34,518 nucleotides of DNA from Candidatus Latescibacterota bacterium (GTDB lineage: Bacteria > Latescibacterota > UBA2968 > UBA8231), in contig JAJDYK010000230.1 in the NCBI GenBank assembly GCA_022825185.1, forward strand, positions 1-34,518, in the 5' to 3' direction. Every line of letters begins with the position of its first letter. Position 1 is the stretch's first letter. Below, piece by piece: positions 4,860 through 30,622 of this stretch. Made by a program: the position numbers and the translations under genes. A model generated the notes under the pieces. That model worked only from the letters and a program-made list of their open reading frames with translations. It had not been told where the DNA came from and ran no database searches.

Positions 4860-4863
4860 GCTC

Positions 4864-6897
4864 TCAGTAGATCAGGGTTAACGGGCGCAACCGACGTACC
4901 CCCGTCCGCTCGGCTTCAGGCGCTACTTCAACCAAGTAGATCCCCGGCGACAATAAAACTCCGTCCTCATCGCGCCCATCCCAGCGCACCCGCTGCGCAC
5001 CAAAGCGCTGTGAACCTAGTGCCCGCTTGGCCACTCGCCTCCCGTCGAGCGAATACACTTTGAACACCACCGGGACATCCTCGGGCAACCCCACCAGCGC
5101 ATAGCCGATCTCGACCTCGTCGTGGACTCCGTCGCCATTGGGCGTCAGCACCCTAGTGGAAAAATCCAATCCCACCACCGGCCCATCGCTTTGCCCGGCC
5201 ATCCCCAAGACCCGCAGGCTATTGGTCCCCAGTTCGGCGCTGGCATCGCCCGGTTCGACGGGCTGGGGCAGCGCATCGACGCCGTCATTATAGACCTCGC
5301 CCGAAAACGTCCAAGCCAGCGAGAACACATCCGCGACAAAGACGACCCGCGCTCCTTCCGCGGCCCCCGGCCCGATCCGCTCCGGCAACACCACCGCTAG
5401 TTCCTCATCGCCCTCGATGACTGCAACCGGCTCGACCGCCCTCGGAGGGTCCCCCATCTCCAGCCGGGTAAACTCAGCCCGCGTCCCAGTGCGAATCCTC
5501 AGCGCGTCAAAACCGGTCCCCTCACCGGCAAATTCGCCGCGAATATCGTAGGCAAACTCCGCCGCTTCTCCCAATGGCACCTCGACCAATCCTCCCGCTG
5601 GCTGGACATCGCCCAATAGCGCGACCTCTCCCAAGACCCGCTGGGCCAACAGCGGTGCAGTCTCAATCCACAGCGAGTCGAGCCGCACGAACGCAGCGAA
5701 GTCTTCGCTTTTGAGCGTAATCCGCAACTGAAAATGAGTCCCCCCTTTGAGGTCAATCGCCTGCCCTGGTTCGGAAAAAGGCAGCGACCAAAAAGACCAA
5801 TTGTCGCTATCGTACTGAATAGAGGCGCGCATTCCCGGCCGGGGATCGCGCAGGCGGCCGGCGCGCCAGCGCGGCTGTAGCACCAAATCGTAGCGCTCGC
5901 GCGTCACCACTTCCTCGCCGCCGCGATCCGTGTACTCGTGGTAGATGTTCGGATCCCCATCGCGCCCCGTGCGCACTTCCACCTCTACTCCCACCTCGGC
6001 ATCGGGAGCCTCCACCAGTGCCCCATCAACCACGCGCAGTGGCGTTGCCGCCCAAGACAAGCGACCAAAATTGCGGGGCACTCCCAAGTCGAAAATCCGC
6101 GAGCGGTACACCACCCGGCGCGGCACGCCCTCGCCAAAAAGTTCAAAGTCGCCAATGGACCCCTTGAAAGCGGTCCCCGAACCCACGCTGGTGTTGCCTC
6201 CCCTCCCCGAATCCAACAGCGAGGTCTTCCGCTTGTAGCGCACGAAGCGCACGTATTGTCTGGGAAATTCGATCTGCACTCGGGCGACAAAATTTTCGGC
6301 AACATCGGCGATCAGTGGACCAATTCGTTTATAGGGTTGGCTCCCTTCGAGCCAACTCGGATCGCCTTCCGCTGCGATAGACACCTCGTAGGCGGGCACG
6401 GCATCCTCGGCAAAGGGGATACCGTCGGAGCGAAAGCCCCGAGGCGGCGTAAAAAAACCAAAGCGGTGCGCCGGTACCGGCACGGCCAGGTCTATAGTGT
6501 ACCAGACCGACTCGGGATTGGACGAGACCGGCGGATTGAACGACATACTGTCGCCATCGACCATATAGGTGCCATTGTGGGCGGTGGTCTCGTTGCCCTG
6601 CGACCCCTTCCAAGCCCGTGGCGTCTCGCCTTCGACATAGGTCAACTCGCGCGGCTCTTTGAGCGGCTCCCAGCCGGTAAATAGCGAGAACAAGCTCTTG
6701 TCCGGCTCGATATAGACGGGCTGAATCGCGCCGGGCACCGAGTCAAAATCGACGAGCACCACTGAGGAATCGCCCTCGCTCCAAGCCAAGCCCGCGCCGC
6801 CGATCTGCCAACTTTGCCGCTGGGCACCGCTAGCCGTCGCCCAGCAGACCAGAAGTAGCCAAGTGATATTTATAATGCCTACTCTTAAACCTGCCAT
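4864..6897 (-). CDS. Large secreted protein with FTPNGDG/FlgD-like tail (partner of the 782-residue protein)
   Basis: The 677-residue product starts with a signal peptide (hydrophobic 8-24, cleavage near ASGA|Q). Its middle holds predicted beta-sandwich regions. Landmarks include FDLGVPRNFGRLSW (near 275) and a TGRDGDPNIY segment. The C-terminal module begins LTPNGDGVHDE at about 584, continues with VYSLDGRRV and SPGIYLVEV, and ends LTLIY. The 645-residue protein at 20248-22185 has the matching landmarks IDLGQPVSLGRLNW and SGDDSDPNTY in the same order, so the two are paralogues. A GAGG ribosome binding site precedes the ATG at 6897. It is the first gene of the minus operon. No catalytic motif is visible; it is probably a surface or extracellular protein. 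Confidence 0.87.
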   Translation of the reverse strand: MAGLRVGIINITWLLLVCWATASGAQRQSWQIGGAGLAWSEGDSSVVLVDFDSVPGAIQPVYIEPDKSLFSLFTGWEPLKEPRELTYVEGETPRAWKGSQGNETTAHNGTYMVDGDSMSFNPPVSSNPESVWYTIDLAVPVPAHRFGFFTPPRGFRSDGIPFAEDAVPAYEVSIAAEGDPSWLEGSQPYKRIGPLIADVAENFVARVQIEFPRQYVRFVRYKRKTSLLDSGRGGNTSVGSGTAFKGSIGDFELFGEGVPRRVVYRSRIFDLGVPRNFGRLSWAATPLRVVDGALVEAPDAEVGVEVEVRTGRDGDPNIYHEYTDRGGEEVVTRERYDLVLQPRWRAGRLRDPRPGMRASIQYDSDNWSFWSLPFSEPGQAIDLKGGTHFQLRITLKSEDFAAFVRLDSLWIETAPLLAQRVLGEVALLGDVQPAGGLVEVPLGEAAEFAYDIRGEFAGEGTGFDALRIRTGTRAEFTRLEMGDPPRAVEPVAVIEGDEELAVVLPERIGPGAAEGARVVFVADVFSLAWTFSGEVYNDGVDALPQPVEPGDASAELGTNSLRVLGMAGQSDGPVVGLDFSTRVLTPNGDGVHDEVEIGYALVGLPEDVPVVFKVYSLDGRRVAKRALGSQRFGAQRVRWDGRDEDGVLLSPGIYLVEVAPEAERTGVRRLRPLTLIY

Positions 6898-16677: not shown

Positions 16678-17967
16678 ATGAGAGCAATGACGCGGCGATC
16701 GCTGCTCCGTGCCGGCCTTACCGGTTGCTTGGTCGCCCCTTGGTGGCACGCACTGCGGGCCTTTGCCGCCCGCCCCACCGAGCTACCGACGAAATCCGGC
16801 GTGACCGATACCGAGATTATCCTCGGCACGTCCGCCGCTTTCTCCGGCCCCTCTCGAGGGTTGGGCATCGAACTCTATCGGGGTGCCGGTGCGTACTTTA
16901 CCCACGTCAATCAGCAAGGTGGCATAGCTGGCCGCACCATACAGGTCAAAGCCTACGACGATGGCTACCAGCCCGGCCCTTCGGTCAAAAACACCATGAA
17001 GCTGATGCTCGACGATCAGGTGTTTTTGCTGTTCGGCTACGTTGGCACGCCGACAGTAACGCGCGTGTTGCCCATCCTCAAAAAATTCCAAGACCGGAAT
17101 ATCCTGCTGTTCTTCCCCTTCACCGGCGCCCAACCCCAGCGCGAGCCACCCTATGGCACCTTCGCCTTTAATCTGCGCGCCTCCTATCGCCAAGAAACGG
17201 CTGGCTTAGTCGATAATTTCGTGCGCATCAACCGTCGGCGCATTGCCGTATTCTATCAGGCCGATGCGTACGGCCGCAGCGGCTGGGCCGGCGTGCGCAG
17301 CGCCCTGAAAAAGCACGGCGAACAAATCGTCGGCGAGGCCACGTACCGGCGCGGCGAACGGTTCACCGGCACGATGCGTAAACAGGTCGAAATCCTCAAG
17401 GAAGCCAAGCCCGAAGCGGTGATCTGCATCGGGGCCTATGCAGCTTGCGCGGCCTTTGCCCGCGATGCCGTCGATCTCGGCCTAGAGGTACCCTTTGCCA
17501 ACCTGTCTTTCGTCGGCAGCGAAAATCTCCTCAAGCTACTCACCGAAGGACGCGACGACAGCCAGCGCTACACGCAATGGCTGGTAAACTCCCAAGTCGT
17601 GCCCAGCTACGAAGACACATCTATACCCGCAGTCCAAGAGTACCGCAACTTGATGAGCAGCTATGCCCCGCAGCCGCCCGCCGAGCTGTTAAAAGACCCC
17701 TATACGCCCTTTGATCACAGCTTCGTCAGTCTCGAAGGCTTTCTCAACGCCAAGTTGCTAGTCGAAATTTTGCACCGCCTCGGGACCGAGCCGCAGCGCA
17801 ACCAACTCGAAGACGCGGTGTTCTCCGTCGCGGACTTCGATCTGGGCATCGGCGAACAGGTCTCCTTTGATCCCGACCGCCGCCAGGGTCTCCAGCGAGT
17901 GTACTACACGGTAGTCGATAAAGGCCGTTTTGTCCCCCTGGACGATTGGCGCGCGAGGTTTGCATGA
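16678..17967 (+). CDS. Tat-exported type I (branched-chain amino acid-type) substrate-binding protein
   Basis: The 429-residue protein starts with a twin-arginine signal (TRRSLLRAGLTG then a hydrophobic stretch ending near AFAA). The mature part is a type I periplasmic-binding fold: TEIILGTSAAFSGPSRGLG, NQQGGIAGRTIQVKAYDD and a YGRSGWAGV second-domain start. Relatives bind amino acids, amides or urea. No permease or ATPase gene is next to it. Instead it overlaps a membrane sensor gene by four bases (ATGA), so it probably presents a ligand to that sensor rather than feeding an ABC importer. I chose ATG 16678; the ATG at 16687 (MTRRS) is also possible. The frame extends to 16615 without family sequence. 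Confidence 0.88.
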   Translation: MRAMTRRSLLRAGLTGCLVAPWWHALRAFAARPTELPTKSGVTDTEIILGTSAAFSGPSRGLGIELYRGAGAYFTHVNQQGGIAGRTIQVKAYDDGYQPGPSVKNTMKLMLDDQVFLLFGYVGTPTVTRVLPILKKFQDRNILLFFPFTGAQPQREPPYGTFAFNLRASYRQETAGLVDNFVRINRRRIAVFYQADAYGRSGWAGVRSALKKHGEQIVGEATYRRGERFTGTMRKQVEILKEAKPEAVICIGAYAACAAFARDAVDLGLEVPFANLSFVGSENLLKLLTEGRDDSQRYTQWLVNSQVVPSYEDTSIPAVQEYRNLMSSYAPQPPAELLKDPYTPFDHSFVSLEGFLNAKLLVEILHRLGTEPQRNQLEDAVFSVADFDLGIGEQVSFDPDRRQGLQRVYYTVVDKGRFVPLDDWRARFA

Positions 17968-18689
17968 TGGTGATAAAAGTCCAAAAGCTCTTTAAGAAAA
18001 CGCTGTTCGGCGTCTTTGCCCTGTTTGGCTTGATCGGCCTATCGACCTCCATTCTGTGCGTCTATACGGTCGATACGCACCTGTCGGCCGAATACGAGAG
18101 CAACAGCCGCGACATCGCCAAAACCATCGCCGATTCCAGCGTCGATATTCTCTTAAATCGCGACTTGTCGGCGTTGCAGTCGCTCATCGATCAGTTCGTC
18201 GAGATTCAGGGCATCAAGTACATCTACATCACCGACGAATCCGGCGAGTTCCTCGCCCACACCTTTGTGCCGGGCATTCCCGCAGAGATTCGCGCCAGCG
18301 ATCCGTTTAATATGGAGACGGTAGAGCGCAGCCTGCCCGGGATGGGCGATTTCGTCGAAGTGGGCAGTCCGATTCTCGCCGGCGTTGCCGGCACGGTTCA
18401 CGTGGGCATGGACACTGGTTTGATTGCGCTAAAAATTCAACGCGCAATCGGCCAGCAGGTGTACCTCTTCTCCATCATCCTCGTCGTCGGCGTCTTTGCC
18501 GCCATCTGGTTGGTCAATCTGGCGGCTAAGCCGCTGGGCGCGCTCTTGGGCTACGCCGTGGGTGTGGCACGCGATGAGAAACCCACCGACGACAACCTAC
18601 TGGAGCGCGACGACGAAGCTGGACACCTAGCTCGACTCTTCCTCTACGTTGCCGACAAAGGCCAGCGCACGCCTGAAAGCGTGGAGTAG
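17964..18689 (+). CDS. Membrane sensor with extracytoplasmic Cache-like domain and HAMP region, no output domain
   Basis: The 241 residues comprise a first membrane helix (14-36), an extracytoplasmic ligand domain (about 37-160) with the Cache/PAS-like strand pattern IKYIYITDESGEFLAHTF, a second helix (165-188) and a HAMP-like segment (about 189-232, DDEAGHLARLFLYVAD). It then stops. Normally a histidine kinase, cyclase or chemoreceptor domain would follow. No in-frame continuation is visible after the TAG. The ATG overlaps the stop of the substrate-binding protein and has GAGG seven bases upstream. The pair therefore looks like a two-gene sensory module, either truncated or signalling through a separate partner. 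Confidence 0.82.
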   Translation: MMVIKVQKLFKKTLFGVFALFGLIGLSTSILCVYTVDTHLSAEYESNSRDIAKTIADSSVDILLNRDLSALQSLIDQFVEIQGIKYIYITDESGEFLAHTFVPGIPAEIRASDPFNMETVERSLPGMGDFVEVGSPILAGVAGTVHVGMDTGLIALKIQRAIGQQVYLFSIILVVGVFAAIWLVNLAAKPLGALLGYAVGVARDEKPTDDNLLERDDEAGHLARLFLYVADKGQRTPESVE

Positions 18690-18738: not shown

Positions 18739-18788
18739 GTGAGATGAGGTCATTCGATGCGAGTACTTGGTGATTGAGGTCTAGAGAC

Positions 18789-20099
18789 ATGGCGCAACAA
18801 AGGGTACTGATTCCGCGCTCGCTTATGGCGCTGTTCTGCACGGTCCTGCAGGTCTGTTTTGGGACGGTGTACGCGTGGAGTTTCTTCCAGACGCTCTTGG
18901 TGCGGCAATTGGGTTGGACGTTCACGGAGACGGCTTGGGCTTTCAGCCTGACGATCCTTTCGCTCGGCACTTCGGCGGCTTGGGCGGGCGCGCTGCTGCC
19001 GAAGGTCGGACCGCGGCGCTTGGCCGTGACCGGCAGCGTCATGTTCTCGGTCGGCTATGTGCTGGCGAGTCTGGCGCTAAAGTGGGACATGCTCGCGCTA
19101 TTCTACGTGGGGTACGGCGTCATTGGAGGCGCGGGCATCGGGCTGGGCTACGTCACCCCCGTGGCCACGGTCGCCAAATGGTTCCCAGACAAGAAGGGCT
19201 TGGCGACCGGCATCGTCGTAATGGGGTTCGGAGTAGGTGCCTTTCTGTTGAGCAAGGGCTTGGCACCCCTGCTCGTATCCCATCTAGCAGGCGATCTGTC
19301 CCAAGTCTTCCTGGGCCTCGGGGTGATCTTCGCCTGTGTCCTGATCCCCTGCAGCTTGCTGTTGAGCAATCCCCCTGCTGCCGCAGCAGCGGTTGCCGAA
19401 CAAACGCCCGCCGACGAGTCCGACTCGGTGTCGCCGTATCTGCGCTCCTCTGAATTCGCCCTCATGTGGATCGTCTTCTTCTTCAACATCGCCGCTGGCA
19501 TCTCCGTCATCAGCTTTCAGTCGGAACTCCTGCAGGAAGTCTGGGGCCTAGCCGATCCAACTGTAGAACCAGCGACGCTGGCCGAGTATGGAGCCACGCT
19601 GATCGCCGTCAGTTCGCTGTGTAATGGCGTGGGCCGACTGTTTTGGGGCTTGCTCTCAGATCGGCTGGGGCGCGTCAGGGTTTTCAGAATTCTGCTCGCC
19701 AGTCAGATGGTCGTCTTTGGCATTTTAATGACCGAGCGCAATCCCTATGTCTTTTCGATCCTCGTTTGTTACATCCTCTTGTGCTTTGGCGGCGGCTTTG
19801 CCACCATGCCCTCTTTCGTGCTCGATGTTTTCGGCCCGCAAAAGATGTCGACGATCTACGGCACCATTTTGACGGCCTGGGCGGCGGCGGGGATTTGCGG
19901 GCCGCTGTACGTGGGGTACCTGAAGGATCAATACCCCGATCGAGCATTCATCTATTGCTTCCTAATCGGCATCCTGATGCTTGGGCTTGGCTACGTATTC
20001 TCCTATTTGTTGAGCGACGATCGCATTCGCCTCCGCCGGCCGACCCTAGAGGATACGCTGCGTCAGTACGGCATTTTGCCCGTGGGGCAAGGTAACTAA
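18789..20099 (+). CDS. MFS transporter, OFA (oxalate/formate antiporter) type
   Basis: The 436-residue protein has 12 predicted membrane helices in two halves. It has the OFA-family hallmarks: FGTVYAWSFF in helix one, GAGIGLGYVTPVATVAKWFPDKKGLATG spanning helices four to five, and a second-half SDRLGRVRVF loop. OFA proteins exchange small carboxylates (oxalate, formate, pyruvate, lactate and similar). The natural substrate here is unknown, but a hydroxyacid dehydrogenase lies upstream. I chose ATG 18789, with TGAGGT upstream; the frame extends 15 bases further to a weaker start. It stands alone, between a repeat-containing gap and the secreted-protein pair. Confidence 0.9.
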   Translation: MAQQRVLIPRSLMALFCTVLQVCFGTVYAWSFFQTLLVRQLGWTFTETAWAFSLTILSLGTSAAWAGALLPKVGPRRLAVTGSVMFSVGYVLASLALKWDMLALFYVGYGVIGGAGIGLGYVTPVATVAKWFPDKKGLATGIVVMGFGVGAFLLSKGLAPLLVSHLAGDLSQVFLGLGVIFACVLIPCSLLLSNPPAAAAAVAEQTPADESDSVSPYLRSSEFALMWIVFFFNIAAGISVISFQSELLQEVWGLADPTVEPATLAEYGATLIAVSSLCNGVGRLFWGLLSDRLGRVRVFRILLASQMVVFGILMTERNPYVFSILVCYILLCFGGGFATMPSFVLDVFGPQKMSTIYGTILTAWAAAGICGPLYVGYLKDQYPDRAFIYCFLIGILMLGLGYVFSYLLSDDRIRLRRPTLEDTLRQYGILPVGQGN

Positions 20100-20247: not shown

Positions 20248-22185
20248 ATGAGCCTACATCTGGTATTGCCGCTGATAGCCTTGGTATTTTGCGCCATTCT
20301 GACCGACGTGAGCCATGCGCTGACCATCTACCGCATCGGCGGCTCCGACCTACCGCCGCCCGAGCGCGACGCGCCTTTCGACTTCATCCAACTAGAATGG
20401 GCCGATATCGACGCCAAGCAGCACGGCAGTACCCTGCTGACGGAGATCAGCACGACCCTCGCGCCCGAGCAACTGGACCCTACCGTCAACCTGACACCAC
20501 TGCTAGATGAACGGGGCGGGAAGATCGAAACGCTGCGCTCGATCGTGGGCTGGGCTGACTTTCCCGCCCGCGACGCGCCGATGTTCGACGGCGATCCCAC
20601 CACCCACTTTCTCGGCGACGGCGATTGGGGTGGAGACTACGGCGCGATAGAAAACAAAGTGCTGGTATTCGATATGGGCGGGCTATTCAACATCGACCGC
20701 GTCCGCTTCTATCCCCGCGAAAAACACCTTGTAGATCGCTTTATCCAGACCTTTATAGTTGGCATCAACGACGGCGATCCGCTCAAGGACGGAACCCGGG
20801 AATACCTAGTGGGCGAGAAGTGGGCAAGGCGACCGCCAGGTGTTCGGAAAGACTTTGAGATAGTCCTCAACGCCACCGAAAATACCCGTTCCGATATCAT
20901 CATCGAAATGCCCGATCGGCCGATCCGCAATCTCCTGTTTGAAGCGCCGGCTAACATCCGCGGCGTCTGGGAAATCGCCGAATTTGAAATTTACGGTTCC
21001 GGTTTTGCACCGCAGGCTACCTACGTCTCCAATGTGATCGACCTAGGCCAACCCGTCAGCTTGGGCCGACTCAACTGGTCTGCGCAGGAGGACGAAGGTG
21101 CGGCGATTGATCTGACTATGCGCAGCGGCGACGATTCCGACCCCAACACGTACTGGCGCAAAACCTTCCGCGGCGACGAGACTACGCGCTATAGCGATGG
21201 CAAAGCCTTGGTGTTGGCCACGTACAACAAACTGGATAAAGGGGAGCGAGCCGGAATCACGCCAGACACCGAAAACTGGCAAACTTGGAGCCCTCCGTAC
21301 GATTTGCCCCTCGGCAGCGGCGACCTCGCCGGCAACAAGCCGCGGCAATTCGTCCAGTTCGCCGTCCAGTTCTCTTCTACTTCGGCAGCGGGCGGGTGGC
21401 TGCATTATCTGCAATTTGAAGTATCCGATCCGCCGGTGGCGTCTCAAGCGTTGGCCGAGATCGTTCCGGTGGAGGTTCAAGCAGGTGCAGTAACGCAGTT
21501 TACCTACAAGATCCTGCCGCGATTAACCGGCACTGATCTGGGTTTTGACAGCATTGAGATCAAAACGCCAGCTCGGATCGCCAGCATCGATCAGGTCCGC
21601 TTGGAAGGATTGCCGGTGGATTTCACCGAGGTTCGCGTGGAAGAAAATGAATTTGAGTTGCGAATTCCCCGCATGGACCTGCAGCGCACCAACGAATTGC
21701 TGGAAGTAGATTTCCAAGCCCAAGTCTTCCAGTTCGGCACGGTATTCGCGGCGCGGATTTTCGATAGCGAGCAGCCCCACGAAGTGCATCAGGGGGTCAC
21801 GGCAGGAGATGCCGATCAACTAGTCGATAGCAACACCTTGCGCGTCGGTCTGATAGATATCGACAAGAAAGCAGTCAACGCCCTGCGCTTGACCACGCGG
21901 TCATTCACCCCAAATGGAGACGGGGTCAACGATCAGCTAAAAATGCAGTACGAATTGCTCAATCTGAGTGCTGTACCGGTGGCTATTGATCTGTACGATC
22001 TTGCGGGGCGGCGCATCAGCGAGCTATACCACGGCACCGCGACCAGCGGCCGTTTTGCAGTAACTTGGGACGGCCGCGACGCCCAAGCCAAGTTACTGCC
22101 GCCGGGCCTCTATATCCTGCGCCTAGAAGTAGAAAGCGACGAGGGCATAAAATCGGAAGAACAAGTAGTTTCGCTGGTTTATTGA
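20248..22185 (+). CDS. Large secreted protein with FTPNGDG/FlgD-like tail (second-module short partner)
   Basis: The 645-residue product has a signal peptide (hydrophobic 4-19, cleavage near SHA|L). A discoidin-like segment MFDGDPTTHFLGDGDWGG is near residue 111. The central block has IDLGQPVSLGRLNW and SGDDSDPNTYW, then a WQTWSPPYDLP segment. The C-terminal module runs from about 551 (FTPNGDGVNDQ at 553), with LYDLAGRRISEL, WDGRD and PPGLYILRL, ending SLVY. It is the paralogue of the 677-residue protein at 4864-6897. GAAGGAA precedes the ATG. The longer partner follows 28 bases downstream, and together they form a duplicated two-gene unit. Function is unknown; an extracellular or surface location is inferred from the signal peptide and tail. 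Confidence 0.88.
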   Translation: MSLHLVLPLIALVFCAILTDVSHALTIYRIGGSDLPPPERDAPFDFIQLEWADIDAKQHGSTLLTEISTTLAPEQLDPTVNLTPLLDERGGKIETLRSIVGWADFPARDAPMFDGDPTTHFLGDGDWGGDYGAIENKVLVFDMGGLFNIDRVRFYPREKHLVDRFIQTFIVGINDGDPLKDGTREYLVGEKWARRPPGVRKDFEIVLNATENTRSDIIIEMPDRPIRNLLFEAPANIRGVWEIAEFEIYGSGFAPQATYVSNVIDLGQPVSLGRLNWSAQEDEGAAIDLTMRSGDDSDPNTYWRKTFRGDETTRYSDGKALVLATYNKLDKGERAGITPDTENWQTWSPPYDLPLGSGDLAGNKPRQFVQFAVQFSSTSAAGGWLHYLQFEVSDPPVASQALAEIVPVEVQAGAVTQFTYKILPRLTGTDLGFDSIEIKTPARIASIDQVRLEGLPVDFTEVRVEENEFELRIPRMDLQRTNELLEVDFQAQVFQFGTVFAARIFDSEQPHEVHQGVTAGDADQLVDSNTLRVGLIDIDKKAVNALRLTTRSFTPNGDGVNDQLKMQYELLNLSAVPVAIDLYDLAGRRISELYHGTATSGRFAVTWDGRDAQAKLLPPGLYILRLEVESDEGIKSEEQVVSLVY

Positions 22186-22213
22186 TCTGAATACTCATCG
22201 AGTGGTGCGAGAT

Positions 22214-24829
22214 ATGGAACGGATTCTGAAGTGCATAAGCTGGGCGATCTTGTCGGTGATTCTAGGTACGGCAGTGTACGGTCAGGGAACAGGTCACCGA
22301 GTGACGTCCGACCAAGTAGTAGTCAACAGCGCAGCGCACTGGCGCAATTGGACCTTTCCCCAAGGGGTAGTGGAAATTTCGTCCAGTGGCACCTTGACGC
22401 CGCACCAGTTGCACCGCGACATCAACGCGGTCCGGGACATTGTCGCTTATCTGCAAGCCCGCCCACCCGATGGGATAAAAAAGGGGCCCGAAGAAATTAC
22501 CGTCCTAGACGGCATCCAAACCGGAACCGCTGGCAATCGGGCGGACGTGGTCAACCTTTTCGACGGCGACTTGGCAACGTACTGGCAGCCCGACTCGCCC
22601 ACCGGTGAGAGCGAACTGGCTGGCCAGTGGTGGTTTACCGTCGATCTGGGGCGGCTAGTAATCGCCAAGAGCATCGTGCTGAAGTTCGTCGACGAGGCAT
22701 TGGGCGATCCCTTCCTGCAGTTCGACGTGCTGGTGTCCCAGGGCAACAAGCCCACGGGTAGTCGTGGGCCCTCTCTCGAATACACCACCATGTTGCGGAC
22801 CCTCAAGCCCAACAAGGAACAGCGGCTCTTCGAGATCGACATGGACCTAGAGCGCGAGTTCGAGGGTGTCGGCATTCGCTTCGTGCAGGTGGTGGTAACT
22901 GGCAGCAATTTCGGTCGGGGTCGAGAAATTACTCAGGCCGAGTACGATCAGCTCGCAGCCGACGAGCGAGGTGAGGTCGATTACTTTAAGCTCCATGCAA
23001 ACGGGCGCGAGACCCTAGTGCCTCAAGAGGTACACAGCCAACTTGAGCCTGAGCAACAAGGGTCGGTGCGCTATTACCGGATCGAGCGTCCACGGCTAGC
23101 CGAGTTGGAAGTGTGGGCAGAAGGCGACGAGATCCTCACCGGAGCGTTGGACAGAGGCGGTTTTGGCACGGCTTCTCAGACGGCATCGATCAATAGCTTG
23201 ATTGACGGGCATATCGAAAGCAAAGTGCAGTTCATCTACACCTACGGTCGGGGATCGCTCAAATCGCCCGAAGGGCAGGTACTTTTCGATTTGGGTGCCT
23301 TTTACTGGATCGACGCCTTCAGGATGGCCTATGGCGGGTCTAGGTTTTCCAATTATCGGCTGGATTTTTCGGACGGCACGCTGGCCGCCGACGGCAGCAT
23401 CAAGTGGAATACCGCTGTCGATCGCGAGCAGCGCGGCGGCGGTGGGATTTCGGCTTTAGGCTTCGGCTTTTACGAAGGCAACAATTTCGCGCGGCTCAAA
23501 GCCCGTTTCTTCCGCTTTGTCTGGAGGCAGTTCGAAAGTACCAGTTCCACGGGCAAAGGCGGAGCCACTGGGCAGCCAGCAGAGCTACAGCTATACGGGC
23601 GAGGTTTCCTGCCCGAAGTAACGCTGACCTCCGATCTGATCCGTTTGGGAGGCAGCCGCAACCTGCTCTCCGTCGAGTGGGATGCCGACACGCCACCCGG
23701 AACCAGTGTGCTGATCCAGACCCGCACTGGCAACGAGTTGAGTGAAACCCTGCATTACTTTAAAAAAGACGGCACGGAAGTATCCAAGGAAGACTACGAC
23801 AAGCTGCTGTCGATCTTCCGCGGCGACATCGTCGCCGAAGAAACCGCTGGTTCCGACTGGGAGCCGTGGAGCCAACCTTATGAAGCCCCGACCGGTTCGC
23901 CGGTGACCTCGCCCAGCCCACGCGAATTTCTGACCTTGCGGGCGACCTTGCTGTCGGACGATCCAGAGGTCAGTCCGACCTTGCGCTCGATTCGGCTCAA
24001 CTTTAGCAATCCCGTGGCACAGAGCATCACTGGCGAAATCTCGCCGTTTCAGGTGGACCAACTGGGTAAGGAGCAGATGTTTTCGTTCTATGTGCGTCCA
24101 GACTTCGGCAGCCGGGATCCGGGCTTTGACCAGTTGCTGTTGGTGGCTCCGTCCGATATGCCGCTGCGCTTTGTGGGACTATATGCCGGTGCCGAGGACG
24201 CCTTCGGGCCCAGCGCCGACTTGTCCAGTATAGCTATACCCGATGTGGAGGTGATGCAGACGCGCGAGGACAGTCTGCAATTGGCCTTCCCGCCGGTGGG
24301 GCCGCGCTCAGGCGTAGAAGTGATGCGGCTAGATTTCGCCACGGCGTTGTTTTCGACGGGCGCGGTGATGCGGGCGCTGTTAAAAAATAGCGACGCGAGC
24401 GAGGGCAACTGGCAACGCGTTGATGCCGGCGAGGCCTTAGTCGGAATCGAGAGCAACACTACGACGCTGGTCGGTGCAGTGCAGAGTACCTCGCTGCTGA
24501 CAGAAGTGGAAGTGATCCCGCGCGTCTTCACACCCAACGGCGACGGTGTCAATGACCAAGCTCAATTCGCCTTCAAGGTGGTGCGGGTGGGCGACGATAG
24601 CCCAGCGGAAGTAGAAGTTTTCGATCTGGCGGGCCGTCGAGTGCGCCGGTTAGTGGAGCAGCGGGATTTGAGCACTGGTTCCTACGCCATCGGCTGGGAC
24701 GGCAGAGACGATGCGGGAGCCTTGGTGCCGCCCGGAGTGTATTACGCTCGCTTGCGGATCGACACCGACACCGAGGGCGCTGGCATCGATGGCGAACAGG
24801 TCCTGAAAACCATCGCCGTCGCGTACTGA
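22214..24829 (+). CDS. Large secreted protein with discoidin-like regions and FTPNGDG/FlgD-like tail (second-module long partner)
   Basis: From ATG 22214 the product has 871 residues; a GTG at 22202 would add four but lacks a ribosome binding site. The signal peptide ends near VYGQG. The first discoidin-like region (about 105-145) has FDGDLATYWQPD and WFTVDLGRLVIAKSI. A second near 350 has VLFDLGAFYWIDAFRMAYGG. The central WDADTPPGTSVLIQTRTGN segment matches WDADLPPQTRIQLRSRSGN of the 782-residue protein, confirming paralogy. The tail begins FTPNGDGVNDQ at about 772, with FDLAGRRVRRL, WDGRDD and PPGVYYARL, and ends IAVAY. It is likely exported and surface-associated. No enzymatic motif is recognised. 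Confidence 0.88.
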   Translation: MERILKCISWAILSVILGTAVYGQGTGHRVTSDQVVVNSAAHWRNWTFPQGVVEISSSGTLTPHQLHRDINAVRDIVAYLQARPPDGIKKGPEEITVLDGIQTGTAGNRADVVNLFDGDLATYWQPDSPTGESELAGQWWFTVDLGRLVIAKSIVLKFVDEALGDPFLQFDVLVSQGNKPTGSRGPSLEYTTMLRTLKPNKEQRLFEIDMDLEREFEGVGIRFVQVVVTGSNFGRGREITQAEYDQLAADERGEVDYFKLHANGRETLVPQEVHSQLEPEQQGSVRYYRIERPRLAELEVWAEGDEILTGALDRGGFGTASQTASINSLIDGHIESKVQFIYTYGRGSLKSPEGQVLFDLGAFYWIDAFRMAYGGSRFSNYRLDFSDGTLAADGSIKWNTAVDREQRGGGGISALGFGFYEGNNFARLKARFFRFVWRQFESTSSTGKGGATGQPAELQLYGRGFLPEVTLTSDLIRLGGSRNLLSVEWDADTPPGTSVLIQTRTGNELSETLHYFKKDGTEVSKEDYDKLLSIFRGDIVAEETAGSDWEPWSQPYEAPTGSPVTSPSPREFLTLRATLLSDDPEVSPTLRSIRLNFSNPVAQSITGEISPFQVDQLGKEQMFSFYVRPDFGSRDPGFDQLLLVAPSDMPLRFVGLYAGAEDAFGPSADLSSIAIPDVEVMQTREDSLQLAFPPVGPRSGVEVMRLDFATALFSTGAVMRALLKNSDASEGNWQRVDAGEALVGIESNTTTLVGAVQSTSLLTEVEVIPRVFTPNGDGVNDQAQFAFKVVRVGDDSPAEVEVFDLAGRRVRRLVEQRDLSTGSYAIGWDGRDDAGALVPPGVYYARLRIDTDTEGAGIDGEQVLKTIAVAY

Positions 24830-26222: not shown

Positions 26223-26906
26223 ATGCACAAAATCTACGGCGACGAGCGCTGGCACCGCGCAGCCGAACGAGGCGGCGACTTCATCATCCTAGCCCAGATG
26301 CCCGATCCGCAACCGGCTTGGGCGCAGCAGTACAACTTGGCGATGGAGCCAGCTTGGGCGCGCAGATTTGAACCGCCCGCCATCACCGGCGGCGAGAGTT
26401 TTGGCGTGATGCAAATCCTGTTGGAACTCTATCTCGCATACGGCGAGCCGCGCTTTCTCGAACCTATTCCCCGCGCCCTAGCCTGGGCGAAAGCAGCGCA
26501 ATTGTCCGATGGGCGCATGGCCCGGTTCTACGAATTGCAGACCAACCGGCCGCTCTACTTTACCAAGGAATACGCGCTCACCTACAGCGATGCAGACCTG
26601 CCGACGCACTATGCCTTTAAGGTAGGCAGCCGCACAGATCGCATTGAAGGCTTATATCAGCGCATCCTCGCAGAAGGTCGCGAAACCATCCTAGCCGAAC
26701 GCGCCCAAGTGCGCCCGGTCGCTGCGGAACGGATCCAAACCATTATCGACGCCCTCGACGCAGAGGGCCGCTGGTTAGAAGGAGGTCGCCTGCGAAATCC
26801 CAAAGACCGCCACGCCCCCATCGTCGCCGAGGTCATCTCCTGCCGCACCTTCAACCGCAATCTCACCTTGCTATCTCAATACGTGGCCAGTCAGAATCGG
26901 CCGTGA
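26223..26906 (+). CDS. N-terminally truncated PL10-like pectate lyase-type protein
   Basis: The 227 residues look like the C-terminal part of a PelA/PL10 pectate lyase. WHRAAERGGDFIILAQMPDPQPAWAQQY, then EPAWARRFEPPAITGGESFGVMQ, are the conserved alpha/alpha-barrel segments, with a CRTFNRN stretch near the C-terminus. Full-length relatives have a signal peptide and some 100-200 further N-terminal residues. Here the protein starts immediately before the WHRAAERGGDF helix, with no signal peptide and no upstream extension. An AAAGG ribosome binding site is present, so a short product could be made. Whether it is active is doubtful: it may be a remnant or a cytoplasmic derivative. Confidence 0.75.
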   Translation: MHKIYGDERWHRAAERGGDFIILAQMPDPQPAWAQQYNLAMEPAWARRFEPPAITGGESFGVMQILLELYLAYGEPRFLEPIPRALAWAKAAQLSDGRMARFYELQTNRPLYFTKEYALTYSDADLPTHYAFKVGSRTDRIEGLYQRILAEGRETILAERAQVRPVAAERIQTIIDALDAEGRWLEGGRLRNPKDRHAPIVAEVISCRTFNRNLTLLSQYVASQNRP

Positions 26907-26957: not shown

Positions 26958-26992
26958 TCTGATAGATTTTTTGTCGGCTCGGGCATATCTTA
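26958..26992 (+). promoter_or_regulatory. Shared Cache-gene promoter box, copy 1
   Basis: Starts TCTGATAGATTT and ends GGGCATATCTTA. Within it TAGATT (26963-26968) and TATCTT (26986-26991) are 17 bases apart, a weak sigma70-like pair. The same arrangement with identical spacing precedes the other two Cache genes. The box begins 75 bases before the ATG at 27033. Confidence 0.55.
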
Positions 26993-27032: not shown

Positions 27033-28673
27033 ATGAAATACTTGACCGCAGTAACCATTCTCGGGCTAGCCTACATCTTGCCCATCGCGCATCCCGCCAT
27101 AGCCCAATCGCCGGAGACAACCGCCAGCGAGGTGGTGGACGCAGAAACACTGCAAGCCTTTGTCGAAGGCGCAAGAGCGTGGTCGGAGACCTTTACCGAT
27201 CCCAACGATTTCGCGCCATATACTATCGCTATCAGTACCGAGGGTGACTGGAAGCACGGCAACACGTACCTCATCCTCATGTTGCCGAACGGCACGGTGA
27301 TCTTTCACGCCGAACACCCATCTGTGAACGGCAAGAGCCTGTACGAAACAGAAGACGCCCGTGGGAACAAAGTCGTCCAAGCCCTTCTGGCAGCAGCCGA
27401 GATGGGTGGAGCCCACGTCGAGTATTACTGGGATGATCCAGAGCAGGAGGGGGACGAAGAGACCGCAAAGATCGCCTACGCCACCAGCTATATCTCCGGA
27501 ACAACGGCTACCACGGTGGTCCTGATCGGCGGTTATTACCAGACCCCTCCGCAGGCCGTTGCGGCGACCTTCGATCCGTCGATCTTCCACCTCCCCGCGG
27601 TCACGGCCGCCGACGTGGTGGATCGCGAAACCCTCAGGGCCTTTGTACAGGGGACGAAGGACAGTTATGCCAATGCCCTAGAACAATTCGGAATCGATGA
27701 GCTCCTGCAACATCAGGATATCTTCAGAGAAGAAGGAGGGCCTTGGAGGCAGGGTTCCATTTACTTCTTCATGTTCACCACAGAGGGCCACGTAATCTTT
27801 CACGGTGCCGACCGGGCACGAGAGCTGAGGGATGCGATTGACTTCGAGGATGACAACGGAATCAAGGTCACTCAGGAACTCATCAAGCTGGCGAGGGAAG
27901 GCGGCGGCTTCCTCGAATATTACTACGACGATCCGGCGGTGACAGGAGACGAAGACACCGGCTCGCCCAAGGTGAGTTATGCGGAACTGTTCACGTTCCA
28001 GGGTCGGGAATATGTCTTAGGTGCCGGGTTCTATACTGGCGACCCCGACCATGCCCTGAGGACTGTTACCCGTACGGAGGTGGAGGCCACGGTCTTGGGC
28101 GACGCCGTCGAGGGATTGGCCGTCGAGTTTTCTCGCGCCATCACCGGCCGCCAGCCCAACTATGCCTGGAACGCGTTCACTGATGCCAGTGGCCACGTGT
28201 CCTTGACCATCTCCAGCACCCGTGGGGTGAGTGGTTACTATCGAGCTCGCGCCCGCAACGCCGCTGGCGAGGTCGTCGGCCAGTGGCACAGTATTCCTCT
28301 TAACCAGAACTACCGCCAAGTCTTGGAGCTACCGCTGGGCGGCGACAAGAGGCTCGTGCGCGTCGAACCACTGGCCGCCGCCAAGGCCGTGGCCGCAACC
28401 AGCGGTCTGGCACCCAATGTGCCCAACCCCTTCAACAGCGCCACGCAGATTGCCTACTACTTGTCCAGCCCCGGCCCAGTGCAGTTAGTGATCTACAATG
28501 TGCTAGGCCAGCGGGTGCGCACGTTGGTGGATCAGTTCCAAGCCGCTGGCTCCTACCAAGTCCAGTGGGATGCCCGCGACCAGCAAGGTGTCTCGCTGTC
28601 GTCGGGGGCCTATATCACCCGCCTGAGCTATCCCGGCGGGGAGCAGACGCAACGGCTGCTTTACCTCAAGTAG
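27033..28673 (+). CDS. Secreted tandem-Cache protein with FlgD/type IX-like C-terminal tail
   Basis: The 546-residue protein has a signal peptide (cleavage near AIA|Q, 24/25). Two sCache_2-like domains follow: about 33-170 (GDWKHGNTYLILM, FHAEHP, VEYYWDDP, KIAYATSY, GGYY) and about 191-334 (GPWRQGSIYFFMF, FHGADR, LEYYYDDP, KVSYAELF, GAGFY). A beta-rich linker (345-450) comes next. The C-terminal tail (463-546) has NPFNSATQIAYYL, YNVLGQRVRTLV and DARDQQGVSLSSGAY. Cache domains normally sense small carboxylates or amino acids in membrane receptors; here there is no membrane helix or output domain, so ligand binding outside the cell or in the periplasm is inferred. A GGAGG site precedes the ATG. 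A terminator follows at 28705. Confidence 0.9.
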   Translation: MKYLTAVTILGLAYILPIAHPAIAQSPETTASEVVDAETLQAFVEGARAWSETFTDPNDFAPYTIAISTEGDWKHGNTYLILMLPNGTVIFHAEHPSVNGKSLYETEDARGNKVVQALLAAAEMGGAHVEYYWDDPEQEGDEETAKIAYATSYISGTTATTVVLIGGYYQTPPQAVAATFDPSIFHLPAVTAADVVDRETLRAFVQGTKDSYANALEQFGIDELLQHQDIFREEGGPWRQGSIYFFMFTTEGHVIFHGADRARELRDAIDFEDDNGIKVTQELIKLAREGGGFLEYYYDDPAVTGDEDTGSPKVSYAELFTFQGREYVLGAGFYTGDPDHALRTVTRTEVEATVLGDAVEGLAVEFSRAITGRQPNYAWNAFTDASGHVSLTISSTRGVSGYYRARARNAAGEVVGQWHSIPLNQNYRQVLELPLGGDKRLVRVEPLAAAKAVAATSGLAPNVPNPFNSATQIAYYLSSPGPVQLVIYNVLGQRVRTLVDQFQAAGSYQVQWDARDQQGVSLSSGAYITRLSYPGGEQTQRLLYLK

Positions 28674-28704
28674 CGCCGGAGCGATTCGATAGGAAGCGCG
28701 CAAG

Positions 28705-28769
28705 AAGCCGTCTGGAGACACCTAATAAGCCTTGAGCAGAGGCGTACGGAGTTTTCAGGCGGCTTTTTT
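28705..28769 (+). terminator. Intrinsic terminator after the first Cache gene
   Basis: AAGCCGTCTG (28705-28714) pairs with CAGGCGGCTT (28756-28765); the single mismatch is a G-U wobble in RNA. It is followed by a T-run (28764-28769) and further U-rich sequence. The loop of about 40 bases contains a small GCCT/AGGC stem. It separates the first Cache gene from the second, which has its own promoter box. Confidence 0.6.
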
Positions 28770-28803
28770 GTTTGTTGCAAATGCTGGACGACAGAGACAA
28801 ATG

Positions 28804-28838
28804 TCTGATAGATTTATTCTAAGATCGGGCATATCTTA
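28804..28838 (+). promoter_or_regulatory. Shared Cache-gene promoter box, copy 2
   Basis: Starts TCTGATAGATTT and ends GGGCATATCTTA, with the same 17-base TAGATT/TATCTT spacing as copies 1 and 3. It begins 78 bases before the ATG at 28882 and lies just downstream of the terminator at 28705-28769. Confidence 0.55.
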
Positions 28839-28881
28839 TTTTATAAGTATTCACATCCTTACCAAGGGATAGGAGACCACC

Positions 28882-29946
28882 ATGAAGCGTCTAATCACAG
28901 TACTCAATCTGGGGCTAGCCAGCCTCTTACCCACCGTGCATCCCGCTGCGGCCCAATCTCCGGCGGTAACCGCCAGCGAGGTAGTGGACGCAGAAACGCT
29001 AAAAGCCTTCGTGGAAGGCGTGAAAGCGCGCATTGAGGAGATAGACGAGGGGAAAGAACTGCTGACGCCGTTTATCTCCAGCCTCAGGGAAGAAGGAGAC
29101 TGGAGGCACGGGAACCTGTACCTCATTCTACTGAGCGATGAAGGGACCGTCTTGTTCCACGCCGACGATGAGCATGCGGGAGACAAGAACCTCCTTGCGC
29201 TCGAAGACGATCGCGGGAATACAGTCGTGCAGGATCTCATCGCCGCCTCGGAGACAGGCGGCCACGTTGAGTATTACTGGGACGATCCAGCGCAGGAAGG
29301 CGACGAAGACACCCCCAAGATCGCTTATGCCACCCAGTTTTCCGGCCAGGCATACGGCAACACGAACGTCCTGATTGGAGGATATTATCAGGATGTATCA
29401 CATGTTCCTCCGCCCGTGTACGACCTCTCGCTCATTCCGCGTCCAGAGGTGACGGCCACCGACGTTACGGACCTCGAAAGCCTCCAGGCTTTTGTAACGG
29501 GAGCGCTTCAGGCCTATGTCGCCGCGTTGCAGGAACATGGAGCCGAGCGCTACAGGGACATCCTGAACGTTTTCAGAGCAAAAGAAGGAGATTGGCGGCA
29601 TGGCTCCATCTACCTGTTCATCTTTACCACGAACGGATACGTAATTTTTCATGGAGCGGATCGGACACTGGAAGCTCGGACCGTGCTCGACTCTGAGGAC
29701 ATCAACGGGCTCAAGATCGTCCAAGAACTCATCAAGGCAGCTAGAGCAGGGGGCGGCTACGTCGAATACTATTACAACGATCCGTCGGTAACGGGAGACG
29801 AAGACACCGGCTCGCCCAAGGTGAGTTATGCCAAATCCTTTACCACGAAAACTGGCCGGGAGATTGTCGTCGGTGCTGGGATATATATGGGAGCCGCTAC
29901 AGCGGTGGAAAGACGGTCCTGGGGACAGCTCAAAAGCCGCTTTTAG
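28882..29946 (+). CDS. Secreted tandem-Cache protein with short WGQLKSRF tail
   Basis: The 354-residue protein has a signal peptide (cleavage near AAA|Q, 24/25) almost identical to that of its neighbours. Two sCache_2-like domains follow: about 33-170 (GDWRHGNLYLILL, FHADDE, VEYYWDDP, KIAYATQF, GGYY) and about 191-336 (GDWRHGSIYLFIF, FHGADR, VEYYYNDP, KVSYAKSF, GAGIY). It then ends in a short tail, AVERRSWGQLKSRF (341-354), in place of the FlgD-like module of the upstream protein. There are no membrane helices after the signal and no signalling domain. The ribosome binding site is GGAG. It is a duplicate of the gene at 27033 that lost the long tail, or an ancestral form without it. Confidence 0.9.
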   Translation: MKRLITVLNLGLASLLPTVHPAAAQSPAVTASEVVDAETLKAFVEGVKARIEEIDEGKELLTPFISSLREEGDWRHGNLYLILLSDEGTVLFHADDEHAGDKNLLALEDDRGNTVVQDLIAASETGGHVEYYWDDPAQEGDEDTPKIAYATQFSGQAYGNTNVLIGGYYQDVSHVPPPVYDLSLIPRPEVTATDVTDLESLQAFVTGALQAYVAALQEHGAERYRDILNVFRAKEGDWRHGSIYLFIFTTNGYVIFHGADRTLEARTVLDSEDINGLKIVQELIKAARAGGGYVEYYYNDPSVTGDEDTGSPKVSYAKSFTTKTGREIVVGAGIYMGAATAVERRSWGQLKSRF

Positions 29947-29981
29947 CATTGTGCAGAACACGTCTTTTGCAGGTGGGCTTG

Positions 29982-30016
29982 TCTGATAGATTTTTTTCGG
30001 GATCAGGCGTATCTTA
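29982..30016 (+). promoter_or_regulatory. Shared Cache-gene promoter box, copy 3
   Basis: Starts TCTGATAGATTT and ends AGGCGTATCTTA, with the TAGATT/TATCTT pair again 17 bases apart. It begins 77 bases before the ATG at 30059. Two bases differ in the right half compared with copies 1 and 2. Confidence 0.55.
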
Positions 30017-30058
30017 TTCCATATCATTACACATTCTCACCTAAAAAAGGAGATCGTC

Positions 30059-30622
30059 ATGAAGCGTCTAACAGCAGTACTCATACTGGCGCTGGCCACC
30101 CTCTTGCCCGCCGCGCATCCCGCCGTCGCCCAAGACCCAGAGGTAACAGCCGGTGATGTAGTGGACCGGGAAACCCTGAAGGCCTTTGTACTCGCGGCGA
30201 AGGCATACGGGGATCAAGCCTCAAGCCTTCCCGAGTATCTGGCTATCTTGCAGGAATTCAGAACCGAAGGACCTTGGAAGCAGGGATCCATCTACCTCTT
30301 TCTTTTTACCACTGAAGGTCTCTTCATCCTGCACGGAGCGGATCCAAGCCTCGAAGGTCAAAACTTGATTGACCTCGAAGACGCCAACGGAGTCAAAATG
30401 GTTCAAGAGCTCATCGCCGTGGCGGCTGAGGGCGGCGGCTACGTCGAGTATCTTTGGCCCAATCCAGCGATAGAAGGAGACACCGGCTCGCCTAAAGTGA
30501 GCTACGCCATCCCCTATTCCGCGCTCGGCCAAGACTTTGTCTTAGGCTCTGGCTTTTTTCCGGAATCCGCTTCTACAGCAGTTGAAGGCCAATCTTGGGG
30601 ACAGCTCAAAAGTCACTTTTAG
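30059..30622 (+). CDS. Secreted single-Cache protein with short WGQLKSHF tail
   Basis: The 187-residue protein has a signal peptide (cleavage near AVA|Q, 24/25) and one sCache_2-like domain (about 32-167: GPWKQGSIYLFLF, LHGADPSLEG, VEYLWPNP, KVSYAIPY, GSGFF). It ends in TAVEGQSWGQLKSHF, which is the tail of the 354-residue neighbour with two changes. Its single domain is most like the second domain of the upstream proteins. It may be the simplest member of a family built by duplication. The AAAAAGGAG ribosome binding site is strong. It is secreted, with no membrane anchor or output domain. Confidence 0.9.
   Translation: MKRLTAVLILALATLLPAAHPAVAQDPEVTAGDVVDRETLKAFVLAAKAYGDQASSLPEYLAILQEFRTEGPWKQGSIYLFLFTTEGLFILHGADPSLEGQNLIDLEDANGVKMVQELIAVAAEGGGYVEYLWPNPAIEGDTGSPKVSYAIPYSALGQDFVLGSGFFPESASTAVEGQSWGQLKSHF

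Follow-up and report, generated by a model that had tools for sequence, protein, structure and literature searches.

A tandem array of apparently exported Cache-domain proteins without recognised signalling output in Latescibacterota

In this study, we examined a tandem array of three genes at positions 27033-30622 of the Latescibacterota contig JAJDYK010000230.1 (the window, i.e. the whole stretch of DNA analysed, is 34,518 nt long), which encode apparently exported proteins built from Cache domains. Cache domains have been described as the largest prokaryotic superfamily of extracellular sensors (PMC4822843), and more than 90% of them are reportedly joined to signalling modules (PMC12889525). 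We read the array, with moderate confidence, as a variable set of exported proteins that bind small carboxylates and derive from a chemoreceptor-type sensing module, for which display at the surface or release is the best reading of the sequences. More tentatively, and with confidence a little short of even, we propose that the carboxylate-sensing Cache module persists, in a number of Latescibacterota lineages devoid of flagellin and chemoreceptors, as a horizontally exchanged secreted repertoire with interchangeable C-terminal tags, including an undescribed tag (the WG tag) that would mark dozens of unrelated exported proteins per nearest-genus genome and often replace the tail of type IX secretion system (T9SS) type in Cache proteins of family f1. 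With its export, clustering, apparent exchange and restriction to flagellin-less relatives, this non-heme Cache family would represent a second career of a sensor module, and makes testable what a sensor domain does once it is no longer signalling.

Exported Cache proteins and the lack of output domains

The array consists of three adjacent plus-strand open reading frames (ORFs) with 2, 2 and 1 sCache_2 domains by Pfam, and ORF coordinates and Pfam matches thus confirm the sequence-only reading of this DNA, which had claimed three adjacent exported proteins with these domain counts. All three proteins score well over the gathering cut-offs of the Pfam models sCache_2 and dCache_2, and their assignment to the Cache family was therefore not refuted by the profile search. 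Pairwise identity among the five window Cache domains is 36-59%. Among NCBIfam models, these domains score best against those of the monocarboxylate sensor kinase MctS and the chemoreceptor CtpM, with matches at profile positions ~95-185 that lie far under the whole-protein cut-offs. Predicted structures, assessed through fold search only, point to the Cache fold in genes 1 and 3; because the gene 1 model has a predicted template modelling score (pTM) of 0.40, its domain arrangement was left unused. Foldseek also ranked the intracellular PAS proteins PpsR and HIF/ARNT for gene 1, with poor superposition, and we read these matches as the PAS/Cache core only.

Pfam and NCBIfam searches detected no output domain in the three proteins, and hydropathy revealed no hydrophobic segment past the N-terminal one (in gene 2, no segment is over the threshold, N-terminus included), which bears out the earlier claim that they have neither membrane anchor nor output domain. 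Their signal peptides, called by eye and hydropathy and not by a predictor program, are identical at only 15-18 of 25 positions, and the earlier description of them as near-identical was too strong.

The comparison set comprised 60 relatives of the nearest genome, G001, with an estimated completeness of 67-99%. Gene 2 is matched in 25 of them, of which G049 has receptors and the other 24 are here called carriers. Stretches taken around the matches in the carriers yielded 119 Cache ORFs, some of them pieces of frame-split genes; 110 match Pfam dCache_2 at E <= 0.01 (55/56 and 55/63), and the remaining ones were found with a profile built in this analysis. At the same threshold, Pfam detected an output domain (methyl-accepting chemotaxis protein (MCP), HisKA, HATPase, GGDEF or other) in 0/119, the complete lists of Pfam families seen across these ORFs numbering 10 and 17. 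The notion that these Cache proteins stand alone outside the cytoplasm, with varied tails and without output, thus holds in the window and across 24 genomes. One ORF, L146, was considered as a permease-Cache fusion and treated as chimeric or broken, its Cache match beginning mid-domain. In five other genomes (G014, G049, G050, G053 and G054), output modules are present in eight of nine Cache ORFs: HATPase in three (L074 and two ORFs of L151), MCPsignal in two (L149 and one ORF of L151) and DUF294 nucleotidyltransferase modules in three (L147, L150 and L152), while the ninth, L148, stops at a contig edge after PAS domains. The frames of L147, L150 and L152 (G014, G050 and G054) join PHP, Cache and DUF294 nucleotidyltransferase modules, with PAS and CBS in addition in L147.

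The closest known proteins are the sCache_2 sensor domains of chemoreceptors (PscD, McpP, Adeh_3718 and a Vibrio parahaemolyticus MCP; PDB 5g4y, 4k08, 2qhk), from which the secreted family differs in having neither transmembrane helices nor HAMP/MCP output. In most of its members, the match to the Pfam model begins at about position 40-53, which indicates that their N-terminal helix differs from that of the chemoreceptors. Stand-alone sCache_heme/DUF3365-Tll0287 proteins (PMC12889525) are likewise extracytoplasmic Cache proteins without output, whereas the array belongs to another Cache family that lacks the CXXCH motif (0/202 Cache matches), forms tandem clusters and carries C-terminal tails.

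Distribution, turnover and probable exchange

Flagellin is absent from all carriers (0/24) and present in 28 of the 36 other genomes (p 3.8e-10), and MCPsignal over its cut-off was found in 0/24 carriers against 19/36 others (p 6.9e-6), both by Fisher tests that ignore phylogeny; one carrier, G004, has a single sub-cut-off MCPsignal match. Within the class, flagellin occurs in none of the 24 carriers and in 21 of the 23 non-carriers. In the nearest genus, all eight carriers lack both flagellin and MCPsignal, whereas the three non-carriers have both; the pattern for flagellin repeats itself in this genus, in genus g6, in family f3 and in family f4.

Judged by comparison of the loci, the array turns over between conserved neighbours. 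Surveying related genomes, as had been suggested, recovered it at the same locus in G001, G002, G005 and G011, with 4, 5, 4 and 2 Cache genes, respectively, against 3 in the window. In the stretches fetched, its neighbours there are 92.9-98.8% identical to the window proteins (lactate-type major facilitator superfamily (MFS) permease, orphan sCache_3 protein, solute-binding protein (SBP), PhyH, pectate lyase-like gene, hydroxyacid dehydrogenase, FlgD-tailed proteins and sulfatase, the FlgD-tailed pair being unmatched in G011 and the sulfatase seen in G001 and G002 only), and the best matches of the Cache genes to the window genes are at 45-95%.

Relatedness within the family follows the host families only in part, with a vertical signal too: a tree of 126 last Cache domains, made by a quick method and weak in its deep branches (support 48), requires 27 label changes (f1, f3, f4, receptors), compared with a minimum of 3 and a shuffled mean of 57.5, and the receptor domains require 2 changes. 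Cross-family pairs are close. The G002 (f1) and G029 (f3) copies share 89% of amino acids and 92% of nucleotides over 385 residues, when SprA of the two genomes shares 35% and 47%; the corresponding values are 88% and 90% for G035 (f3) and G002 (f1), with SprA at 35% and 46%, and 88% and 91% for G045 (f4) and G033 (f3), with SprA at 57% and 60%. SprA was taken as the longest frame in the stretch around the SprA_N match, four G024 rows (23-72 aligned residues, wrong frame) being left out. Exchange probably occurs; since these pairs were picked from the tree for looking close, we give no frequency. The G002 copy ends in a WG tag where the G029 copy continues into immunoglobulin (Ig)-like and FlgD domains, which amounts to a swap of tails at the border between domains.

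Ligand pocket and candidate functions

In PscD, Tyr90, His103, Tyr143 and Lys156 hold the carboxylate (PMC5062169). Mapped by hand through an alignment, this Tyr-His-Tyr-Lys tetrad is kept in 5/5 window domains and complete in 145 of the 160 secreted-family domains scored, the remaining 15 differing at one position; scoring was confined to domains with at least 100 aligned residues, and 42 of the 202 Cache matches were too short. Among the 142 alignment columns, those of the tetrad rank 2, 3, 7 and 10 in conservation. Apparently, the Cache domains are still able to bind small acids.

Besides the tetrad, the strongest functional hint is an apparent swap of domains on a shared scaffold. Adjoining genes of G031 place either two Cache domains or Peripla_BP_6 on a lipoprotein-like Ig scaffold (Pfam Big_1, under its cut-off); in G029, the Ig scaffold is by eye common to the Cache and the adjoining Peripla_BP_6 proteins; and in G044, Ig-Peripla_BP_6 genes (Ig by eye) adjoin a three-Cache protein. 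The proposed role resembles that of Peripla_BP_6 solute-binding proteins, which share a similar Ig lipoprotein scaffold in related genomes, but the array differs from the solute-binding proteins of ATP-binding cassette (ABC) and tripartite ATP-independent periplasmic (TRAP) transporters in having Cache instead of the SBP fold and no cognate permease. Ligand capture, one of the roles put forward by the sequence-only reading, thus gains indirect support from the carboxylate-binding residues in all five window domains and from the occurrence of Peripla_BP_6 on a similar scaffold; chemical buffering, another of these roles, would look no different from capture in these data.

In such a scheme, the proteins would leave the cytoplasm by Sec; a T9SS-like route would take the gene 1 product across the outer membrane, and the products of genes 2 and 3 would be handled by way of their WG tag. 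Once at or beyond the cell surface, the three proteins may bind small carboxylates and so concentrate them locally for uptake. One candidate user of the bound ligands is an L-lactate-type MFS permease encoded at 18774-20099, 7 kb upstream of the array (320.5 bits vs a cut-off of 320), and a 2-hydroxyacid dehydrogenase gene also lies upstream in the window.

Several observations weigh against this reading. The permease and dehydrogenase are parts of a block conserved as a whole, and we found no transporter within the array and no permease between or next to its three genes. The pocket-lining residues Trp92 and Phe126 of PscD are replaced in the window domains by F or I and by V or T, respectively, so that the residues governing pocket size are not matched and the ligand may be larger or different. 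Many of the 42 unscored matches are first domains of a ~600-aa type, and in these the second half of the tetrad is, by eye, missing; not every domain of the family, therefore, need bind. As the ratio of nonsynonymous to synonymous substitution rates (dN/dS) of window gene q2 against G002 is 0.40, and nucleotide identity exceeds amino-acid identity in the cross-family pairs, constraint may be weak in some copies. The association of the array with missing flagellin is confounded by phylogeny and habitat, and two class non-carriers, G012 and G028, likewise lack flagellin.

Among the alternatives, surface recognition or adhesion is possible but unlikely. Here, the Cache domains would serve as protein- or host-binding modules in animal-associated life, the pocket being secondary, as in vertebrate CACHD1 or alpha2delta. 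These animal proteins have extracellular Cache domains without output of their own, together with VWA and other domains; fold searches with the predicted models gave matches to them, whereas Pfam gave no VWA match in the window proteins. The strong retention of the carboxylate tetrad would be unexpected if the surface alone mattered.

We regard as rather improbable a co-receptor function, in which the secreted proteins would capture ligand for presentation to a membrane sensor, with the output in trans, as LuxP does for LuxQ. It is favoured by the membrane-anchored sCache_3 protein encoded in the conserved upstream block, described below, and by the sequence element preceding each array gene, which suggests regulated supply. 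Yet G001 has no sCache_2 receptor with output, all 12 of its sCache_2 matches sitting in output-free proteins; MCPsignal is over its cut-off in none of the 24 carriers, other sensor kinases not having been surveyed; and gene number at the locus varies freely from 2 to 5, which a fixed partner would disfavour. No evidence for the earlier suggestion of presentation to a partner receptor emerged from these searches.

That the proteins are functionless remnants of lost chemoreceptors, now in decay, is very improbable: the carriers lack flagellin and over-cut-off chemoreceptors, and a few of the ORFs (L061, L117 and L143) are broken across two frames, but dN/dS is 0.16-0.40 for the three window genes, and N-termini, tags, upstream elements and tetrad are kept. 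A redox or cofactor carrier, a role reported for stand-alone sCache_heme proteins (PMC12889525), we consider highly improbable, c-type heme being already contradicted and a heme or redox role rejected on the absence of CXXCH from the Cache matches, with no cysteine in the three window proteins.

C-terminal tails, upstream elements and neighbouring genes

By pattern, the tails of the 119 family ORFs comprise 50 of FlgD/T9SS-like type, 37 WG tags, 13 lipoboxes and 19 other or partial ends, and FlgD_ig is matched by 49 ORFs in Pfam. The gene 1 tail passes TIGR04183 (32.5 bits vs a cut-off of 23) and stays under the cut-off of Pfam Por_Secre_tail (17.4 vs 27), and a fold search with its predicted model gave a match to the PorU C-terminal domain. 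Gene 1 and the 50 tails thus resemble T9SS type A cargo, with the differences that the cargo here is a ligand-sensing domain and that 37 of the 119 ORFs bear a different short tag. SprA_N, the only T9SS part looked for, was found in 57/60 relatives, G001 included, and a T9SS-like translocon therefore seems general in the phylum; in review abstracts, T9SS is called specific to Bacteroidetes. The f4 Cache proteins L136 and L138 end in yet another type of tail, which by eye is dockerin-like.

Genes 2 and 3 show no T9SS C-terminal sorting domain at E up to 1 (Pfam, NCBIfam) and end instead in TAVExxSWGxLK, the WG tag. A wider form, TAVExx[ST]WGx[IL]K, located at or near the extreme C-terminus, is common to unrelated exported proteins in family f1. 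A profile built from 16 tags of these same genomes gave, at E <= 0.001, 50 matches in G001 and positives in 25/25 family f1 genomes, 0/22 other class members and 6/13 further genomes of the phylum. The motif is carried by 62 listed ORF ends, 61 of them distinct (one G018 protein occurs twice), 12 from G018 and the rest from G001, where six belong to Cache proteins. The tagged bodies (for example L183, L187, L204, L233, L254 and L265) include CBM9-like (L268 over the cut-off, L183 under it), fasciclin, PD40 propeller, FGE-sulfatase, Temptin_C and Cache domains, and most begin with a signal-peptide-like stretch by eye. A stop-anchored DNA pattern for the tag gave 14 matches vs 3 for the control in G001, 4 vs 4 in G009 and 2 vs 9 in G029. 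NCBIfam sorting models did not match any of 10 WG-tagged proteins. Word searches of the open-licence literature returned neither a secreted Cache array in Latescibacterota nor a WG tag among the matches listed, nor the motif strings, and the tag appears previously undescribed. It may be a sorting or processing signal; should it serve in sorting, it would give access to part of the secretome of a phylum that has received little study.

A 35-nt element, TCTGATAGATTTWTT-N6-TCRGGCRTATCTTA, precedes each of the three genes (Table 1), its pattern giving 3 exact matches in the window vs 0 in 100 shuffles. In relatives, 7 matches were found in 4/6, each directly upstream of a Cache gene of the array locus, and a reversed control gave 0; an extra 337-aa Cache gene in G001 is preceded by a near-copy of element copy 2. 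A generic scan for sigma-70 promoters and terminators gave no more matches than in shuffles, and the element is therefore named as possibly a promoter only. With an element copy before each gene, a single operon with a single promoter is not the simplest view. A tRNA scan found none.

Table 1 Coordinates of the array genes, their domains and the upstream elements in the window
Feature	Positions	Strand	Details
Upstream element copy 1	26958..26992	+	before gene 1; possibly promoter
Gene 1	27033..28673	+	signal peptide + Cache + Cache + transthyretin/Ig-like + FlgD/T9SS type A-like C-terminal domain; 546 aa
Gene 1 signal peptide	27033..27107	+	25 aa; by eye, hydropathy
Gene 1 Cache domain 1	27117..27548	+	residues 29-172; tetrad Y79 H92 Y131 K146
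Gene 1 Cache domain 2	27600..28043	+	residues 190-337; tetrad Y244 H257 Y296 K313
Gene 1 transthyretin/Ig-like domain	28074..28370	+	residues 348-446
Gene 1 FlgD-like/T9SS type A sorting tail	28419..28670	+	residues 463-546
Upstream element copy 2	28804..28838	+	before gene 2
Gene 2	28882..29946	+	signal peptide + Cache + Cache + WG tag; 354 aa
Gene 2 Cache domain 1	28966..29397	+	residues 29-172; tetrad YHYK
Gene 2 Cache domain 2	29449..29895	+	residues 190-338; tetrad YHYK
Gene 2 C-terminal WG tag	29899..29943	+	TAVERRSWGQLKSRF
Upstream element copy 3	29982..30016	+	before gene 3
Gene 3	30059..30622	+	signal peptide + Cache + WG tag; 187 aa
Gene 3 Cache domain	30143..30568	+	residues 29-170; tetrad Y79 H92 Y131 K146
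Gene 3 C-terminal WG tag	30575..30619	+	TAVEGQSWGQLKSHF

Elsewhere in the window, the orphan Cache gene at 17964-18689 (sCache_3_2, 49.1 bits; two hydrophobic segments, a HAMP-like linker by eye and no Pfam output) stands between the SBP gene and the lactate-type MFS gene, in a block kept in G001, G002, G005 and G011. The short pectate lyase-like ORF at 26223-26906, whose best stretch covers positions 130-220 of 292 of PF09492, shows 83-94% identity in five relatives. In related genomes, two lipoprotein-like ORFs (L095:2066-4006 and L104:1612-4104) place a Cache domain between spondin-like domains, detected in L095 as two stretches of NF038123 and in L104 by eye. Finally, four large proteins encoded at 2511-6897 and 20248-24829 of the window resemble the tail region of gene 1 and are candidate T9SS-type cargo; matches over the FlgD_ig and CHU_C cut-offs are present in the ORFs at 20248 and 22202, and the ORF at 2511 has F5/8-type C together with one CHU_C match just under its cut-off.

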